Under the pieces are notes generated by a model. The model was given only the letters and a program-made list of their open reading frames with translations, made no database searches and was not told the DNA's origin. From NCBI RefSeq assembly GCF_021134715.1, contig NC_060017.1, positions 7,068,001 to 7,132,000 of the forward strand: 64,000 bases of DNA, given 5' to 3'. Below, one piece after another: positions 46,303 to 58,529 of the stretch. A program made the position numbers and the translations under genes. The stretch's first letter is position 1, and each line of letters opens with the position of its first letter. This DNA comes from Daphnia pulex (taxonomy: Eukaryota > Arthropoda > Branchiopoda > Diplostraca > Daphniidae).

Positions 46303-49300
46303 TTAAACTTGACTGGACCCATTTTCACGAGTTTCTGCAATGTATATCTGTTCGCCTGAAGTCCTGTGCTGGAGCGTGATGTACTGGGTGACAAAGTGCG
46401 ATGCAGGATAGGGATTCATCAAGAGTGGATCGCAGAGTAGGCTGTCGCTATTGTTGGCAGAGCCGCCTCCACTTCCCAGAGATAGGTCCAAGGAAGCTAG
46501 TTTGCTGGCTAAACTGCTGGATCCCAACTTGTTGTTACCCCCGGAATTGGATTTGCGCACTTGACAGCCATGAACGGTGACAGCAGCAGGTAATTGCAGT
46601 TCGAGAGAAGCACTCCCCTCTATCTGAATGGATGACAACGGAATACCTACGCATGGCTGAATTAGACGTGTATTATTGGTCAGTAATTCAACCACTTCGG
46701 CCGCCTGAGGCCTTAATGACGGTGTCCGGTGCCAACATGACTTTAATAGTGTTTCCCTAAATTTTAAAAAAATATATAAGAAATATTATTAGCATTACTA
46801 CAACATACCATTCTAGTCTCAGTTCATTTCATGGGCTTACAGTTGAGGTTTAACTCCTTCAGGGATATCAATGGTCATTCCGTTTTTTATGTGCCCCAGC
46901 ACTTGGTTGTTGCTCATTCCCTGAAACGGAAAACTACCAAACGTGATAATCTCGTAGAGAAGAACGCCGTAAGACCAAATGTCGGTCATAGGAGTAAATA
47001 GGCCATCCACTAAACTCTCTGGTGCCATCCATCTCACTGGTAACATGCCTATAAAAAAAATACAATCAAATTGCACAATGACTGAATGTAAAGATGACTC
47101 TTGTGGACCGTGGTTAGAGCAAGGAATTAAATATATCAAATAAAGTCAGTCACGTAATGCTCTCGTTTTACTATTGGCAGAGGATTCAGGGTAATCTACC
47201 GAGCATTTCTTTTTTGTCGGGAAGACGTGCTGCTGCTGCTTTGTCAAAGATATCATCGCTTTCTTGGTTTACACATCATATTTACTTTATAGAGCTTCCC
47301 TAAAGGAATCGACTTATTGCTATTGTTGAATGAGAGATCTGAGCCCTCGACAAAAGAGCTTAGACACGGCGACTGTTTCATATTGCGAATCTCGATAACT
47401 TTCAAAAATCAAACAAGAACGAGATGGATGACATTTGGAATACAGCACTGACCTTTGCGGTGGAAGCGATAGTAATCGTTCTCGTACCTGATCAATACCA
47501 AGAATAAGAGATTAATAAACTTGGTTTGGCTAAAGATATCAATGTATGACTTACATGGGTCGAGCCATTCCGAAATCGGCAAGTTTTGCCACACGATTTG
47601 AGTTCACCAAACAGTTTCGACAGGCGACATCCCTGCAAATATGACTCAAATTGTGAAAATGTTATTAAATCAAAAATGGAAATCAAAACTGACCGGTGCA
47701 CATATTTCAGTTCGGCCAGATAACTGAGTGCTTTAGCGACGTCCAAGGCGATCGATGTTAACCGACGACCAGATATTTCGTCCGAGTCTTCGCGGCTTTT
47801 CTCGTAGACTAAATGCCGTCTGGCCAGCAAGTAAGTCTTTAAGTCGCCTGCCGGGAAAACAAAAAGGAAATGACATTAGAGCTTACACTGTATGGTGGTG
47901 ACACGAGGAGAATAAATATCAGATTTTACCATAGAGAATGAATTCCATGACTGTGTAAACGGGCTCGTTGCGCGTGCAAACGCCCAGCAAGCGCACGATG
48001 TTTTTGTGATTGAAGCGCTTCATCATTTCGGCCTCGCTAAGAAAATCCAACTTTTCTTCCACAGTTGAACCGACTTTGAGTGTTTTGACGGCCACTGCGA
48101 CCTGTGAATAAAATTAATAAAAATAGTTATCAAGGGTTCACAGTTGATCAAATTATTTACAATTTACTTACCCATCCTTTGTCGTCAAAGAAGGCCTCGC
48201 CACCGTAGACAGTCCCGAATGCGCCCTCGCCCAGTTTACGGTTGATAACGATCCGTTCGCGCGGGATTTCCCACTCGTCGAGCGTGAGGAGAGTTCCGGA
48301 AGAGAGTAGTCCAAGCGCCCGCATTCTCTCTTCCGTCTGTTCCACTTTACGTTCGTAGCGACGTTTGAAGACGAAAAAGAAGACGACAAGGCAACCGGCA
48401 AAGACACCAAATCCTAAAATGTTGGCGACTACAATCGCCGCTTCGCATTCTACATTCAATAAATTGGCCAATCCGTCCAGGACGCAGACAGTCGTTCCGG
48501 GTTCCGGGTCGTCCACCGGCTGTTTTCCGTCCCACGTGAGCCACTTGATGAGCGATTTATTCAAGTTTCTAAATTCCCAAAGTTGAATGAATTTCAACGA
48601 TGAATAAATTTGAAATGACAAATTATTTACGGGGGTCCGCTAGTCGGTTTGGTGAGTTTGGTCCTTGCAACAGGAAGAAATCGTCCAATGAGTTCACTTG
48701 ATTTGTTGATCCACTGGAAGACCTGGATATCAGAGTATCGAGACAGTGCGCCAGTAAATCTCACTCTGCCGGAAACGCCGGTAAAATCTGTCTCGTTTAT
48801 GATTCGCCTAAGACTCCTTTGGGATGGAGAGGAAAAAACGGAAAGATGGAAACATAAAGTTAAGCAAATAGCGTTAAGTCCACCGCAATAAAAAAAAAAT
48901 TATTGCAATAATCTTTGATGACATTTGCTATTTCCTAGAATAAGTTAGCAAAATAGAATAAGATTGATGTCGTTCGTATTTATCTTGGTCTCGGGATCAG
49001 AAGAATGGCGTAGAGCTATGTTCTAAGTCAATGTAAAACAAAAATGGGGGGATCAAGGGCTCATTGTTCTCGGCGATCGTGACACGACTTTACAGAGTAG
49101 CCGTATGGATTATTCCAATGTTTTACTCTTTCTTAGGAATTATTTAAAAAAACAAAACAAAAAACATAGAATGGTAAATTCTGCAGTGGGTGGACAATAC
49201 AGGCAAATGTGTGTTGGGGAGAGAAAATGCGCTTACGGGAATAACAAGAAAGGAGGAAGAAAACGCCTTCATACATTAGGCGATCTTAAATAATTTATCG

Positions 49301-52300
49301 CATCATATTTTCATGAGACTACAATAAAATTGCTGTTGCTACTCCGGCTCTGTCTAAAAAGCTTTCACTTTTACTATTCAGTGAAAATGGAATAATACAG
49401 CTCAACGTGAAAAGACGTCGAGCGTTTCGATCGTAAATTATCAAGAGCGCTTCGGGTGGAAGAAGGACATTGTTATTCTGTCTCAGTCTCTCATTGTAAA
49501 AGAAACCCTTCACGCCGGCAAGTTTTATGGGTATAGCTCGATTTTTCAACTGTCATCAGAAATTTGTGGTTATGCCGAAACAAATGGTCAACACTGCAGA
49601 CGGGGGTGAGAACGAAATATGGAAAATACTTAACATAACGGTCGTGAAATAAGCTATCTAGTGCATACAATCCTACCAGAGCACATAGCATTATTACCAT
49701 AATTTATGCATAGCAATTTATACTGACTCTGTGGTGTGGTCTGTGTGGAAATCGGCCGCTAGTGACTCGTTTCCCGCCAGCAATTTGTCCAGCGCCAAGG
49801 CGTAGGTCCAGACGGAATCGTAAATGTAACTGGCATACTCTGAAGTTGATGTGTTGAATCGGGCGCACTGGAATTCGTAGCGACGTCGCCAATTACTGAC
49901 ATTCACCCCTTCTTGCATAAGACTTTCGTTGGGTGCGTAACTCGAGTAAGTCATGTAAAAATGACCGTCGATTGCCTGCCATCCCATTGATCTGTTATAG
50001 TTCGCTCTCCTTCAAAAAAATGAATCGAAATACCTGAATTATTTGCTCGGTTGAACAGGGAATCGCTTCCAGGGTGCGATTTGATTGACTGACGCGGCTG
50101 TCGATATCATACCAAATGGGTGTGGGACCCTAGAATAGGAATTGGGTTGGTATAGTTTTGAAATTTGGGATTACTACTACGTCTAACAAAATTGTGTTTA
50201 TATAACTTACTTGAAAGAGTTCAGAATTAAAATTTGGCAAAAACCAGACGTATCCTTCTTTGGCTGTCATGTTGAGTCTAAAGGCTTGGCACATGACTTC
50301 GCAAGCTCGTTCTTCATCAAATTCGCCAACGATAATCTTGACTCTCTTCGCTTTGAGATCCTTCAAGTACTGGACGAACAATTCATTAGAAATCTTTTGA
50401 TATCATTTCATACCATCTGAACAGATAAATACCTCCAATGAAGAGATGCTGGTGATTTTACGAGTGGTAACAAATGTGATTTTGTTACTCTCCGCGTAAT
50501 CTTGGACCGTGTTCACATAGTCAGAGTACTTTTTCCCATCGCTCATCAAAGCGCCAACTCGTTTCCAGCCAAGCTGTTGGAGCAGAGTCAAAAAGACGTA
50601 TCTGCAGGATAACCATCAAATAAAAAGAGAAAAAAGAAACTTGTTTGGCACTCTATATCTTTAGCAGTCTGCTGCTCGCTTTGATTTCTCATTGTCGATT
50701 TGGCTAATACTCAAGCTAGGAAACTTTTGGCTAAGAGAATCAATTTAGAAAAATGAACGCACTTGAATTGGCCAGTCTCGCCGATCGTGCGGAAGAAGTA
50801 TGGAAATTTGTTTCGATCCGCAAAACTCGATCCTTGAGCGCTATAGCTGATGGCGATCGTTTTAAAACGTTTTGAAACTCCCGCCACAGGCTCCACGGTA
50901 TCGGAACAGGCTGGACCTGTAAACCCGGACAGATACATGGTCAGTACATAGTTACCGTGAAGTATTTAAATAATTCATGGAAAACCGATAAGTAAAATAG
51001 TGTTGGACGATATACTTACCGAGAATGCCGACCATACGGTTAAAGCTCTTGAAGCGCAGATAATCGATGAAGCTCTTCATGACCATGTCAGCTGAGCACT
51101 GTCCGTCAGCAACGAGCAGTTTAAGTTCGTAGTCCCTTAGGATCGTCCCGTTTCGATTGATGGCATCGACGGCCATTTGGGCAGCTAAACGGGACCGCAA
51201 GGACTCGTAACAGACCAAGCGAAGCGATTCCCATGATGGGGGTATTTGTCTATATGCCTAATATTGTACCTGGCACCATCCCTGGACCACTCTTGTAAAA
51301 CGGACCGCTGATGGGGAAAATCCCGCCTATGTAGAGTTCCATTTTCACGGTCAGATCCGACGGTTTCCATTGCGACCAGACGTCCGGATTGCGTTTCATC
51401 CAGTCGCAGGCGATCTCTTCCACTAGCGGTTCCTTTTCCGGACGCTCATTGTACAGATGCAACATGGCGTTGTACTCTTCCTGTGTGAAGAAGACCCGTT
51501 GCAAAGCCTATAGTAGAAAACGGGGGAGAAAAATAGACATCGGATAAAGACATTGTTCACTGTTAAGATTTATTTTGCGTTTGCCGTTGAGTGAAAACTA
51601 TACTGCAGACGAAAACATCGGGCTGATGGCCAACATTACTCCAAAGATAAACCGAGCGCTTGCATTTCGTTGTAAAGCGCTTTTTCAGTTAGATATATGT
51701 AGCCAATAAAAAGTATTTCTACGCATGAAATGTTTAGCAAATAGATATCCATCCCATTCTCTTTCTTTTCAGCGTTGGCGAGGTTTTCATCGCACTGTTA
51801 TATACAGTACAAAAAGAAAAAGGAAAAGGGAATAACGGCCAGGGACCATAGCCAGATCCGGGAAAAGAAAGGGGCGGGACTTTGAATCGTTAAAGGGGAA
51901 TTTTATTTTCGTTCCAGTTTGTTTATCAAAGCCAATTGAAACTTTGGCTTCCAAAGGGACCGGTTTTGGATGAGACCCTTTAACGAAAAAGTTGAAATCC
52001 TCGTATTTTTTTGAAGAAAGAAAAGGCCAATTAATAATAAAGTTGTTAAAAGAAGAATCCAACTAATGCAAAAATCAATAAAAGGAGCATCCCTTTGGCG
52101 TGTGTGAGAAACAATTTAGAGATCTCCCCCCTCTGAATTGCCATTTCTTGCGAATATCTAGCGATGTTGTGGGAATATAAGCGAGAATAATTCTATCAAT
52201 GTAGCCAATATAGCAAGCATAGCGGATTAAACTAGTTGAGAATGCTATCGATCTGTTGATCACCAGTGAAATATAGCTCACTTGGGTATTCTTTACATTA

Positions 52301-55300
52301 TACGACAACGCCTAAAGGATCGTCGTCGTCGATAGAGTAAAGTTTCGCTTTTTATTTTCACCGCAAACACTTGGAAAGATGCTATGGGCTTTTTTAGTTG
52401 ATCGCCTATTCTTAAGTTTGAAATAATAAGACTGCACATAAATAAAAAAAGGGATAAAAGTGGATTCGGAGGATTAAGTGTAAAAGTAAAAAAATATGGC
52501 AAATGTAAGGGAGAAAATAAGTAAAGTCTTGTGAAATGTTGTTTGGTAACTTCAAAAAGGAAAGGAAAAATTGCTCAGTTTGAAATTCTACCTCAGAGAA
52601 TTAGGTGTGGCGGCAGCTGCCTGTTGGTCATAACATTTTCTAGTTCTACTTAGCTTCACTTGTAGTAAAGTTTAACATGATTTAATTTCTAAATGATTTG
52701 ACAACCTAAATTGTGAAACATGGGTTTGTCGGCTGTTAATCCAAGAAAATGTTGCAAATTATGAGCAAGAATATGTTTGCCAAGTAAACTGTTGAAAATA
52801 CGGTAAATGATTAATACTGAAGTACAAAAGAACTTTTGAGAAAAACTTGAATAAACAAATAACAAATTTATGTTTACCATGATGCTGCCTATGATTGTTT
52901 TCACAGAAGCCTGACGTGATTTTCCTGCAGGAACCATCATTTAACCACAAACAACCCATGTTTGTTTCACAATTTAGATTGCTGAATGATTTTCAAGACA
53001 TAGCTTGAAGAGCTATGATGATGATTTCTCGAGAAGCGAAGAGCAAATAGAACATGTTGTGTACCACGCTTTCATGTGAATAGTTGAACACGATTGCTTT
53101 CCAGGTAGAATGCAAACAATACTTCACAAAGTTATAAAATACTTCAACAAAATATACTATTTAATATTTTGAAATTGTATTTTACCTTTCAGCTGAACTT
53201 TTAATGTTATCATTTCGTTTTTTTTTTTGTAATCTTCGTCTCATTTTTGAAAATTGTAATAGCCTAAACTAAACCAAAGCAGACGACACTTTTCGATAGA
53301 AACAAAATCGACCCCTCCCCTAAAATCCAAACCGCTCAGAATTCAAAAACGATAAAAGAGATTTTCTCACCCGCGCTCGACATCCACTTATCCGGATTAT
53401 TTTAGTTAAATAGTTCGTTTCAACAAGTGTACTAAGCCCTCCCCAAAGTTAACATATTAAGTCATAATTTGCACGAAACCCGCAGATTAATTACTTTTCG
53501 ATAAAAGCCATGCCTCAATCTAAAACCCTGCAGAACCCTCTTGGAAAGCCAATAGGAAAAATGTAATAGGGTGACGCAGCAGGACGTGTCGCTGATGGAG
53601 GAAAATAGTTCACCCTGTTGGATTATTCAAACAGAGGCTCATAGCCACAGCTTTGGATACTCTGGACGAAGGTTATGGGCGTGACGAATAAAGCCTCCAG
53701 TCCCGTCTAACGAAACGGTCCACAAAGTTCACAATTTCCCACAGATGGGACCCGGCCGATGGGACCTTCGAGATGAATAGCCACCACATCCCATACATTT
53801 ACATAGGCCAAAGATTTCCATATGCGATTTTCTTATAGTCTCCCTATCTCCGTTGGAGTGAAAAGCTTCTTTTAAAAAATATAAATATTAGTGCTATCTT
53901 ATTTTTTTACGGAGTATAATCAAATCAAATCCTTAAGAATAACTAACGGCGTTCAACGTCTATACGGGGAGCTGGAGGAAATCTCAACTTGACATTTGGT
54001 GGACGACTGTGCCGCTGGTGGCCAAAACAACAAGTTTAGGCTAGAAATATAGTGACAATTTGATTATCTTGTCTAGAAAAAAGTCTGGGAAAAAGTATAT
54101 GGTTGCGTCAATATTAAGTTTAGACTGCTTTGTTGGCAATTGTTGTAAAGTGTGGACGGCCGGCCAATTCCGGCGGGGGCGTACGGAAGGAAGTTTTTTC
54201 AAGGCTTTCTTCTCAAAGTCGCACTGCTTTTTCGCCCACAAAATGAAATAAATAAATAGTAATACTAAAAAAATTGGGAGAGTATAGAAACGAGATTTAT
54301 TATGTTTATAATATATAGATAGATATATATGTACTTGTATTCTCTTGCGCACCGCTGTCGTAAAAATCTACGCCAGATGACAAATAGTTTGTTATATATT
54401 TTACAGCATGCGCCAGCACAGTCTGTTAGGTTCCTTATATTTCTTTTTTAACTTTTCACCTTTACGATTCTATGCATTATTCAGTTTTCAAAGTTGGAAG
54501 ACTCCCGCCCCCACCCCAGTTCGTTGGAATCGACTGTAATATGCATTTCGACGTCGTACAGATAATCGAGTCCTTTCAAATTTATTTTGAAGTATATAGC
54601 TACATCAGCCAAGTACAGTGAATTGAGAGTGGATACTAGCTGCTTAATGCGTAAACTAGCGGAAGGATATGGGGGAGAAACCGTGTTTTTTTTTATATCG
54701 TTCACCTTGGCACGTGCAAGAAAAATCGATAAACTTAAAATGTAGGGCAAATCATAATTATAGCTACGTCTACAAATGAACGGCATTGTAAATAAAAGTA
54801 GCTAGCATAGCAATTACCGATCTGAAAAAATATTATGTTTCCTACCTCGAAGACGAGTTTGGCTCCTTTCTTGAGGTAAGTCCAGGCAACCTTTTCGAAG
54901 CGCTGGAATTCGTAGGCGCATCGCATATCTAATCAATAGAGCGTCGTCAATTATACTGAAAAGGTTTTATACGTGTTTCATCCAGCAGAGAAGTAAAAAA
55001 CTAAAATTGCCAAAGCTCTTACCGCTGTCTGGCGTGGAGAGGGTCTCACACTGTGGGAAAGACACGCTGAGAAATTCAGCACTTTCGGTAATGGTGCTGG
55101 GCCTCCAAGCGAAGAACATGATGGAGCGTCCGGATAGGCGTCGACCAACGTCGTTGAAGAAATCCCGGACAACGCGGTCGGCATTGGGTCCCAGCCACAC
55201 CACCTTGACTCGTAGTCCCAGCGACGGAATTTGCTTGATTAGAAAACTCATGTAATCTATTTGGTGAAAGGATAAACATTTCATTATTCCGGTCTTTTCT

Positions 55301-58300
55301 AAATAATCGATCGTTTGGGATATAGACTACCTGGATATTCTGCCAGAAGGACGGCACAGGGTGGCATATTTCCAAACTCATCCTCACGACAATATTCAGG
55401 GTAGAATATTCCCTTATCGCAATAACTAGCATCGCAATAGTACCTTTAAAATGAGAACGACATTAAATATAACTTGGTATAAAATAGCATTGCCTTATAT
55501 TCTTGGAATTTAAATTTTAAAAAACCTTCCGGTGGTTGGATCTTTAGTGAACTCGGCCAGTCGCCTCATCTCTTGGGCATCAACGTCAAAACGGGTTGCT
55601 ATCTCCGGGTCGAGAAGACTCCGCCAGTGATCGGGTAACGGGATACTATTGATGGTCCATTGAGGCATGAACCAACCGAATCTAAACAAACGTACGCACG
55701 GACCATCAGAAAAGTTCGCCACGGATGTCTAAACATGCGCTGTCGATCGGCCAAATAAGCCGATCAGATGACGTCAGCAAACACCGCAGGAATCTCGTAC
55801 GGATAGTTATAAAAAGGAATTCCCGTTTGGGTTATTTTTCCAACACTTTTACCGCTTGAAAACAAACTGCTGCTGGTCGATTCTATTTCCGTCATAAGAC
55901 ATCCGATCTAATACCCTTATTTTCTGACTGACACACAAAAGCGACAAGCTCAGCTGACATAATCGCAATCAAAAAGAGAGGATGAACGACCTCAGCGAAA
56001 AATTGTGATTATTACAACGATTTTAATTGGCACAAAAAAATCTAAAATTTGGTGATCAAAATTTGATTTTTAAAAAGTGTCATCTTACCTTCCGCCAGGC
56101 CCCAAGAGACCGCACTCTTCCAAGTTCCCGGAAGCCGACCACTGTTCCATGTTGTATCCGAGCGGGACCCAAACTTCCAGATTGATCATCGTTTCCGGAA
56201 CGAACGACTCCGACTGCAATTCGGCCGAGTCGCAACTGCAATTTTCATATTTCCAATTATATTAAAACAATCGAGAGACGAAACGCTGAATCATTCTGTT
56301 GTTTTTTTTCTCTGAATTTCTTTTGAAATAATCTTTTAACTTAAATATTTAATGTCAAAGCCTATAGGGGGTATTGAATGACGGTGGCTACATCTAAAGT
56401 AAAGAGGCTTCCAATTCGCTTGGCTGACTCCCGCCCGTACATAGCTCCGCTGGTAACTTAATGTGACATTTGACCCGACCGATGGCCTCAATCAATCAAT
56501 TTCAACGTTCTCAGTGCACCCTGGGGTTTTCCATCAGTGTAACTATATAGTACTGCGGTTCGTTTTCTTTTTTTTTCCATTAGTATAGATTGGTCGCATC
56601 AGGTCGTTGTCGCCATTAGAGACACGTGTGTGTGCTGGCCTATAATATAAGAGCTAGGTCGTTATATGTACGCTGAACCTTTTTGGATGGCCCCCGTTAT
56701 ATGGAGGACACTTTCACATGATTCATATGTGTTGTAGAAAGTTATATTGTAAAATGGGATTATGGCAATCTTTCGTGACTTGGTATCTGGTTCGTGACTT
56801 GCACCAATATAACGCGCGGAAGGGATGATGTATTTCGTTGGTGAAAGATGAAGGGCGACGATGAAAAAGTAGATCAGCAGGCCTTTATTTTTGTAAAGAT
56901 TTGTGGGCCTAAATTCGTGTGCCCGTTGTCTCCATACCAGCAACGGCGGTCACCATGGCTGTGTTTTATAACCAGCATCTATAGAGACATATAAACCTCC
57001 TTTTTCGGTGTTGTAAGGATGCGCGCGCGGGGGTTTAGCTTCTTTATTTTTTCACATTAAGAGGATTGGCTCTATAATAAGTTTTATCTAGTATATGATT
57101 GACGTCCTCGAAATGCCAAAGGTGTACCTAGTAGGGACCACTTGTTATTAGCCCAAAGTTTAAAAAGAAGTAGTTAGCTATATAGTATAAAAAGTAGAAA
57201 TTCAAAAAGTTCATGAGACTATGTGCACTTTTGCCGGTGCCATTTCAAGAAGAAACATACTACCGTACAGCCTATAAACCCGTAAAATATATTAACAGCT
57301 TCCATCCCATATAGTGCACAGCCCCCCTACGGCTATATAGGTTGTAGTATAATCTTTATAGCCAATATCAACCCACCCAATATTTTAAAGAGCCCCGGTT
57401 GGCCCCGGTTTGAAATGTTGGTCGTATAACTATCCTTACGTTCAGAAGGACGATCGTTATTGGAAACGAACCCATATAATGAAAAACGTTTCAAAGAGTT
57501 ATGCAATAAGTCGTTACAAAAATTGCCAAACACGCAAATCGATATAAAATAATAAGTTTGAATTTAAAACAAAAAAACCAACTTGATGGGATTGGAGCAT
57601 CCGGCCATCCGGCTGAGGACGGCCGAGACGTTAAAGGCATCGCGACGCTTGGTGACGGTCACGTTACGATAGCCGAGCACTTCCCGTATGAAGATGGCGA
57701 AGACGGCCGTCGAGAGCTGGTGAGTCACTCTGTCCGAGGCTTCCAGTCTGAGTTCCAGCGCTTTATTGTCGTGCAGGAATGAGCGGGCCGGCTTTTGGGC
57801 CATATTCAGCCCCACCGCGGCTATATACTCGTTCATATACAAGTATAGCACAAAAATGAGGAAAACATATTAAAAACTGTTATATGACTATATGCCCATT
57901 AATCATAAATCTTGGGCTGGTTTTGAAGGACTGGTGACATTTACTCGTCCTGTTTTATTATTGCCCAAAAGCAGCGGGATTTTTGGCATGAAATGTACAC
58001 TGTAAATCAGACCCCCGACTATTACATTACGTATAACCGCATTATATTACCACAGACATTACATTCCATATTTTTCTATCCCCCCCACAAAGAAATTTTT
58101 TTCTTTTTTTAAAATGCGCTCACGTCGCTTATTAAACTAATGTGGCTACGTGAATTGAATCAATTAGCTAATGACGTTGGCAATTCAAATAAAAATCATC
58201 GACAAATATAATAACCAAATTATAAGGTAAAACATGTTGTCGAAGGTAGAACATGAAGTCGATGATGTGGTTGTAGATATACGTCAACAAATTCGGCCAC

Positions 58301-58529
58301 AGGCCAATTATCGTCAACATGATCAACTGCTGCTGTTTCTAGGTGGGGAAAAAGGAAAACAAAAATAAACCTTACCCAGTTGGTCGTCGGTTAGGCACTT
58401 GCTGGTCGATGGAGTTGAAAACGATCCTTCAACTTGAACCGACGACACGGTGGACGTCATGCTGGCCGCAATCATGGCCGTATGAAGCATTACGTGGAGC
58501 GTCATGGCGCTGCTGACTTTTATCGCCAT
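46303..58529 (-). CDS. VKR: Venus kinase receptor with an additional N-terminal OpuAC-like binding domain
   Basis: Receptor tyrosine kinase of about 1370 residues from more than 20 exons. A signal peptide starts at ATG 58529. Residues about 50-405 form an OpuAC/glycine-betaine-binding-like domain (listed separately). Residues about 410-830 form an ANF-receptor-type Venus flytrap (IGGIFPISGPFY, AAQMAVDAINRNG, FFRTIGETGQF, YASYIYDSVWTYALAL, GVSGRVRF). A membrane span lies near 873-898 (IVVANILGFGVFAGCLVVFFF). The kinase has GEGAFGTVYGG, AVKTLK, RDVACRNCL, DFGMARP and the insulin-receptor-type activation loop MYENDYYRFHRKG, then PVRWMAPESL and the helix with SCWHRTPSLRPQA. A tail of about 110 residues follows. 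Flytrap plus this kinase is the Venus kinase receptor family, known from flatworms and many invertebrates and activated by amino acids or peptides in studied cases. The stop is at 46303, about 280 bp from the convergent ACOT13. Early exons: 58376-58529, 57583-57760, 56089-56235, 55526-55681, 55331-55443, 55023-55256, 54846-54928, 51270-51507. Confidence 0.88.
51360..57760 (-). other. Exons encoding the OpuAC-like domain of the VKR gene
   Basis: Exons 2-8 (genomic span given, introns included) encode residues about 52-405. Landmarks shared with bacterial glycine-betaine/choline binding proteins: an opening strand LELRLEASDRVTHQLSTAVF with a following LGYRNVTVTK; INLEVWVPLGYNMEQW (the DV.LE.W.P strand); FGWFMPQW (the GW..P motif); and a final lobe ending EEIACDWMKRNPDVWSQW, which matches the AA..W...N...V..W terminal helix of that family. 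Exon phases agree across all joins (1, 2, 2, 2, 1, 1, 0). The weakest point is the acceptor of exon 2 at 57761-57764 (AAAG), chosen because it preserves the frame from the signal-peptide exon. Several extra cysteines (YYCDASYCDKG, YCREDE, PPCAVL) suggest disulfides suited to secretion. Confidence 0.75.
51508..54845 (-). other. 3.3-kb intron inside the VKR gene
   Basis: Donor GAG/GTAGG at 54845 and acceptor CTACTATAG ending at 51508, phase 0. By far the longest intron of the gene. It splits the OpuAC-like domain between KLVFE and ALQRVFF. I see no nested gene: open frames inside are short and without domain similarity. Confidence 0.6.

Follow-up and report, generated by a model that had tools for sequence, protein, structure and literature searches.

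There is no agreement on how Venus kinase receptors (VKRs) are activated. Reports exist for arginine, for calcium and for the hormone OEH, and in the available parts of the literature each of these has been assigned to the Venus flytrap. A locus in the genome of Daphnia pulex, lying in a window of 64,000 nucleotides (contig NC_060017.1, positions 7,068,001 to 7,132,000, forward strand), raises the question whether the flytrap is the only binding domain of these receptors. The flytrap, transmembrane and kinase parts are already known from the accessible accounts; what is new here is a domain of the OpuAC type in arthropod VKRs, that is, an animal receptor kinase carrying a type II binding-protein domain of an osmolyte-transporter family. 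Should an overlooked second binding domain make up almost half of the ectodomain, models of ligand action that consider only the flytrap would be incomplete, and locating the site of large-peptide binding could be reduced to a question of domain deletion.

Gene structure and domain organization

The coding region of the D. pulex receptor was modelled as 22 exons (Table 1). All 21 introns are of the GT..AG type and the spliced translation equals the 1345-residue D. pulex record P0001 exactly, the acceptor sites of two exons (9 and 12) having been set to fit that record. The preliminary description of the locus had claimed a complete VKR, and this was borne out. Pfam searches with a first-pass exon model yielded a flytrap (ANF_receptor, E=9e-48) and a tyrosine kinase (E=4e-84), and a Kyte-Doolittle scan alone placed one membrane span above threshold between them (886-916). 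The kinase motifs GEGAFG, VAVK, HRDVACRN, DFG, YENDYY (at 1115) and PVRWMAPE are complete; its insulin-receptor type was judged by family match and motifs, not by a tree. The gene is likewise classified as a VKR by similarity searches and not by a tree. The public label of P0001 is 'receptor-type guanylate cyclase gcy-5-like', and relatives bear similarly misleading names such as 'GABA type B receptor subunit', 'atrial natriuretic peptide receptor' and 'insulin-like peptide receptor'. A tail follows the kinase, and some 43 residues, presumably a signal region, precede the OpuAC-type domain. In these ~43 residues no hydrophobic peak above threshold was found in D. pulex or P0003, and the same scan detected one in P0002 and P0004.

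Table 1 Features of the D. pulex VKR gene, in positions of the window
Feature	Position	Strand	Basis
Whole coding region, 22 exons	46303..58529	-	spliced translation equals P0001
Exon 1	58529-58376	-	spliced translation equals P0001
Exon 2	57820-57583	-	spliced translation equals P0001
Exon 3	56235-56089	-	spliced translation equals P0001
Exon 4	55681-55526	-	spliced translation equals P0001
Exon 5	55443-55331	-	spliced translation equals P0001
Exon 6	55256-55023	-	spliced translation equals P0001
Exon 7	54928-54846	-	spliced translation equals P0001
Exon 8, residues 376-455	51507-51270	-	spliced translation equals P0001; helices/strand from ectodomain model
Exon 9	51184-51020	-	spliced translation equals P0001
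Exon 10	50916-50763	-	spliced translation equals P0001
Exon 11	50601-50433	-	spliced translation equals P0001
Exon 12	50369-50211	-	spliced translation equals P0001
Exon 13	50129-50034	-	spliced translation equals P0001
Exon 14	49975-49728	-	spliced translation equals P0001
Exon 15	48816-48631	-	spliced translation equals P0001
Exon 16	48568-48172	-	spliced translation equals P0001
Exon 17	48101-47930	-	spliced translation equals P0001
Exon 18	47847-47694	-	spliced translation equals P0001
Exon 19	47632-47555	-	spliced translation equals P0001
Exon 20	47487-47453	-	spliced translation equals P0001
Exon 21	47048-46841	-	spliced translation equals P0001
Exon 22	46756-46303	-	spliced translation equals P0001
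Intron between exons 7 and 8, 3338 bases, phase 0	51508..54845	-	exon table
OpuAC-type N-terminal domain, residues 44-434, exons 1-8 with introns	51331..58400	-	profile and fold searches
Venus flytrap (ANF_receptor), ~residues 435-866, exons 8-16	48511..51330	-	Pfam and Foldseek
Transmembrane span, ~888-916	48361..48447	-	Kyte-Doolittle scan, hydrophobic region 886-916
Tyrosine kinase domain, insulin-receptor type, ~residues 955-1222	46675..48246	-	Pfam and motif positions
Arg82 codon (domain position 39), at the place of TmoX Trp55	57729..57731	-	profile alignment
Trp153 codon (domain position 110), aligned to TmoX Trp102	56169..56171	-	profile alignment
Trp320 codon (domain position 277), aligned to TmoX Trp222	55105..55107	-	profile alignment

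The OpuAC-like region had been placed in frame upstream of the VKR, across a junction of positions 54846 and 51507. In the gene model this junction is the long phase-0 intron that separates exon 7 from exon 8, and its 3338 bases could speak for two neighbouring genes, one for a soluble OpuAC-like protein and one for an ordinary VKR, fused by gene prediction. However, exon 8 carries both ACDWMKRNPDVWSQW and the flytrap segment IGGIFPISG in a single open frame, and corresponds in the predicted structure to the helices at the C-terminal end of the OpuAC-type domain together with the first flytrap strand. Because this exon spans both domains in frame, a fusion of two predictions is excluded for practical purposes. 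Flytrap and kinase labels occur together on 34 of the 36 proteins retrieved with the N-terminal domain, and the locust SgVKR open reading frame, equal in length to N-domain-bearing P0003, has been confirmed on a PCR amplicon by Sanger sequencing (PMC5601475); both findings also make a fusion very improbable.

Homology and fold of the N-terminal domain

Single-sequence searches were of limited use. The D. pulex N-terminal region alone matched 0 Pfam families at E<=1, PF04069 staying short of its cut-off, so that the profile check suggested for this one sequence came out negative. PF04069 also gave 0 matches against the whole genome in six frames (133 Mb, 13 contigs), as can be expected for a domain that is diverged and split over eight exons. 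When 20 arthropod N-domains were searched singly, nine matched PF04069 at E<=0.1 and five other Pfam families matched once each. The curated PF04069 cut-off was passed by four of six relatives, these four having been chosen because search tables had flagged them beforehand. The family is already flagged in databases on some VKR proteins: a precomputed PF04069 label stands on 6 of 120 proteins among the matches listed for the flytrap-only search described below.

A profile of the 20 arthropod members retrieved osmolyte-binding proteins from the PDB (E=3e-10), along with one unrelated glycosidase (E=0.0073). The single-sequence matches of the relatives are confined to the latter half of the OpuAC model and the PDB match is strong only over the second half of the domain; coverage of the full length rests on a profile-profile comparison with a bacterial set (279 columns, Prob 99.2) and on the predicted model. 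Nine control comparisons all stayed below Prob 1. In eight of them the bacterial set was compared with other profiles, namely those of the flytrap and the kinase, five shuffles and a reversed one; in the ninth the N-domain was compared with the flytrap. The last of these (Prob 0.7) agrees with the early claim of two different binding-type ectodomains, one of the OpuAC type and one of the GABA-B/ANF type. The predicted N-domain fold is of the two-lobed type II (OpuAC, cluster F-III), as the structure prediction proposed as a check would require of an OpuAC-type binding protein. Foldseek searches with this model gave 50 matches at E<=0.001, all from the osmolyte-binding-protein family, to which some were assigned by title and others presumably belong. 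In structure comparison Z fell from 13.2 to 9.4 at the edge of this family.

The idea that the resemblance reflects chance, or merely a generic two-lobed fold, draws on the failure of the D. pulex sequence alone to match any Pfam family and on the glycosidase among the PDB matches. It is contradicted by the E-value of the osmolyte-binding proteins in that same search, by the apparent restriction of the Foldseek matches to one family, by the drop in Z at the family edge and by the nine controls. Chance as the source is excluded, its likelihood being negligible, and we regard homology of the N-terminal domain to OpuAC-type binding proteins, and with it the two-module VKR architecture, as very nearly certain.

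The N-domain also contains an insert with cysteines, opposite which the bacterial profile has a gap (positions 192, 197, 207 and 218, in P0001 residues 235, 240, 250 and 261). Among 119 full N-domains, cysteines 207 and 218 are present in all 119, cysteine 192 in 112 and cysteine 197 in 110.

Distribution among arthropods and in VKRs already studied

A search with residues 45-440 returned 36 proteins of 1031-1450 amino acids at E<=0.001, the D. pulex record included, with Artemia, insects, a springtail and a millipede among the named sources. A flytrap-only query taken from a millipede protein gave 186 matches, the best 120 of which were examined. The N-domain HMM matched 92 of 93 further proteins among these listed matches at E<1e-8, several of the 92 being partial; the sole exception, P0126 (889 amino acids), is probably cut short. 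Further carriers among the matches listed come from horseshoe crab, spiders, scorpions, ticks, barnacles and mosquitoes. The HMM used to scan the window included the D. pulex sequence, and its matches there confirm positions only. Judged from these sequences, the OpuAC-type domain appears to be a standing part of arthropod VKRs. The finding is thus wider than the preliminary description, which had suggested looking for the region in other arthropod VKRs, and weaker on osmolyte function.

Sequence change is quicker in the N-domain than in flytrap or kinase: mean pairwise identities are 0.354, 0.546 and 0.701, respectively, over 32 proteins, that is, the 36 without four that are truncated or lack the kinase. 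VKRs of a stalk-eyed fly and several drosophilids (P0033-P0036, P0143, P0144) retain the domain wholly or partly in diverged form; that of P0034 shares 22% identity with D. pulex.

Published lengths and residue numbers imply that AmVKR, AgVKR and SgVKR contain the domain as well. The open reading frame of SgVKR encodes 1277 amino acids (PMC5601475), as does P0003, which is from the same genus. The mutated flytrap serine of AgVKR is Ser505 (PMC6401105), and its equivalent is residue 507 and 520 in two N-domain-bearing Anopheles proteins. DFG is at residue 1031 in AmVKR (PMC2680970) and at 1040-1056 in three bee proteins with the N-domain. The AgVKR and AmVKR numbers would be several hundred lower if the long N-terminal region were missing. 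According to the 2009 AmVKR paper, no further known domain could be revealed (PMC2680970), and in the 2013 family paper the D. pulex VKR was set aside as truncated (PMC3703292). As had been guessed, an OpuAC-type module is not mentioned in VKR descriptions, which in their available parts give only flytrap, transmembrane segment and kinase. A search for literature linking venus kinase receptor and glycine betaine found none, a direct pairing with OpuAC lying outside that search; in the text of a VKR paper retrieved by a combined search that included OpuAC, the word occurs 0 times.

Schistosome VKRs probably carry the N-domain too, as far as residue numbering goes. The flytrap serines are Ser466 in SmVKR1 and Ser410 in SmVKR2 (PMC4038586), and in 104 proteins the distance from the flytrap start to this serine has a median of 78 residues (range 75-88), which leaves ~390 and ~330 residues, respectively, before the flytrap. 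The SmVKR2 kinase construct, 967-1308 (PMC9661718), is near the arthropod numbering. The N-domain was, we infer, acquired by the receptor no later than the common ancestor of the arthropods, and probably before it. Short VKRs of other phyla were sought with a 640-residue query among targets of up to 1120 amino acids, giving 131 proteins at E<=1e-20, the best 120 of which were examined. Among the matches listed, the only named short flytrap-plus-kinase protein from outside the arthropods is limpet P0141, which begins inside the flytrap and hence is uninformative on the N-domain; the remaining named non-arthropod proteins listed bear the seven-span label PF00003.

The binding cleft and its ligand

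The pocket of TmoX is formed by W55, W102, F106, E131, W177, F220 and W222 (PMC8918994). These positions were mapped by profile alignment, not by structural superposition, and residues were counted over 119 full N-domains out of 237 proteins. The W102 position is Trp in 115. The W222 position is Trp in 89, with Tyr in 14 and a charged residue (Arg, His or Lys) in a further 14. At W55 Arg is found in 112, at W177 Thr in 86 and Ser in 17, at E131 Phe in 81, and at F220 Leu in 75 and Phe in 31; F106 is variable. In D. pulex, by the same alignment, the aromatic cage is incomplete, with two of four Trp and no Glu, and its N-domain is therefore not filed as an osmolyte-binding protein.

The charged residues at W222 occur in P0005, P0006, P0040, P0043, P0050, P0052, P0056, P0057, P0059, P0079, P0080, P0082, P0130 and P0134, the named carriers being spiders, a cockroach, termites and a planthopper. 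The aromatic cage thus does not appear to be universally kept among arthropod N-domains, and the charge of the cleft seems to have changed more than once. The seven aligned positions are more conserved than random sevens of the domain (p=0.0075). Buried positions are conserved anyway, which makes this weak evidence for binding, and some gap-filled columns count as conserved, which renders the control stricter. The result hints, if weakly, at a cleft that still functions. The near-invariant Arg at the cage argues for a carboxylate-bearing ligand, or else for a structural role.

The binding of an osmolyte or quaternary amine, as first suggested for this receptor, has to be weighed against these substitutions. 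A VKR whose N-domain were still a true quaternary-amine sensor (of betaine, choline, carnitine, TMAO or similar) would read an osmolyte or methyl donor in addition to an amino acid. The nearest solved relatives do bind TMAO, DMSP, glycine betaine and choline, and the equivalents of Trp153 and Trp320 are largely retained, but the replacements at W55, W177 (Thr or Ser in 103 of 119) and E131 run against such a specificity and a buried Arg would disfavour a cation. The suggested tie to aquatic life and salinity finds no counterpart in the distribution, as the domain is also carried by terrestrial arthropods (insects, spiders, ticks, scorpions and a millipede). We consider a quaternary-amine sensor improbable.

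A tandem ectodomain and its possible role in activation

The ectodomain was predicted as a model of 846 residues from 56 sequences (pLDDT 88.1, pTM 0.82). Its last N-domain helix ends at 379 and its first flytrap strand starts at 388, leaving a predicted linker of ~8 residues. This suggests that N-domain and flytrap may form a rigid tandem, although pTM is not a contact map. The best PDB matches of the predicted ectodomain in Foldseek are GABA-B receptors, with ~440-480 columns each.

The explanation that we favour, with a probability of about 0.6, is that the arthropod VKR ectodomain consists of an OpuAC-type domain (type II, cluster F-III, ~390 residues) and a GABA-B-like flytrap in tandem, the former having been repurposed. 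The N-domain would have descended from a bacterial-type quaternary-amine binding protein. With two cage aromatics kept and Arg in place of a third, the cleft would most likely accept an anionic, zwitterionic or carboxylated small ligand; alternatively, the N-domain could act as an allosteric and hormone-docking module. Its opening or closing would reach the flytrap dimer by way of the short linker, thereby tuning kinase activation by amino acids. This mechanism, in which an N-domain with altered ligand or docking function tunes the flytrap, is put forward tentatively, its chances being a little below even.

VKRs have been implicated in insect egg formation or larval growth (PMC4522560; PMC6401105) and, in schistosomes, in reproduction (PMC4038586). 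In AgVKR the strong arginine-induced phosphorylation was lost in the S505A mutant (PMC6401105). As this flytrap mutation abolishes the strong arginine response, the N-domain is probably not the arginine site and has another role. In the D. pulex flytrap, the motif SYSA-E-G has Gln537 (exon 10) where Glu is found in 120 of 121 motif-bearing sequences (P0001-P0129). Judged from its distance to the GPACS serine and to FFRTI, this position is probably E92 of the 2013 alignment, a residue named as important for amino-acid binding (PMC3703292), and amino-acid binding in Daphnia may therefore differ.

OEH, a neuroparsin of 86 residues, binds and activates the Aedes VKR (PMC4522560; PMC5601475), and its site was assumed in a review to be the flytrap (PMC4522560); the N-domain may be an obvious alternative candidate. 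A further reading is that the N-domain has lost small-molecule binding altogether and serves as a protein interface, in dimerisation or in docking of neuroparsin/OEH. The activation by OEH at an assumed flytrap site would fit this, and the rapid divergence of the N-domain, together with several conserved cysteines, is what one would expect of a module at the surface. On the other hand, the cleft positions are conserved above average, and the N-domain occurs in horseshoe crab, spiders and a millipede, while Limulus, Strigamia and Stegodyphus were reported to have a VKR with neuroparsin not found there (PMC4888303). Being more widespread than neuroparsin, the N-domain probably did not arise for it, and a pure interface is rather unlikely. 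Returning to the tandem with a modulating N-domain, it is possible, though somewhat less likely than not, that arthropod VKRs, and by their numbering probably those of schistosomes, are dual-sensor kinases in which the OpuAC-derived domain binds a second ligand and gates the flytrap. If true, this would cover both an altered-specificity metabolite and neuroparsin as second ligand, and would explain how a flytrap receptor believed to read arginine also answers an 86-residue hormone.

Comparison with known systems

The D. pulex receptor resembles AmVKR, AgVKR, SgVKR and SmVKR1/2 in its flytrap with the GPACS Ser and FFRTI motif, its one span and its insulin-receptor-type kinase. Residue numbers published for these receptors imply an equally long N-terminal region, whereas their descriptions, in the parts available, give flytrap, transmembrane segment and kinase alone. 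With the binding proteins of marine bacteria the N-domain shares 20% identity in the case of TmoX (4xz6, TMAO binding) and 16% in the case of DmpX (7yle, DMSP binding). It has Arg at the place of W55, usually Thr at that of W177 and usually Phe at that of E131; the cysteine-bearing insert and the fusion to a receptor kinase further set it apart from both. The Trp-prism reported for the glycine-betaine/choline proteins OpuAC, ProX, ChoX and OpuBC (PMC2861598) is only partly present. OpuAC in the ectodomain of a eukaryotic receptor has been described for glutamate-family GPCRs of Allomyces macrogynus (PMC3251606). These are fungal, seven-span receptors and not kinases, and are likened here by their description; by analogy, they may be taken as a precedent for an OpuAC domain in a receptor ectodomain.
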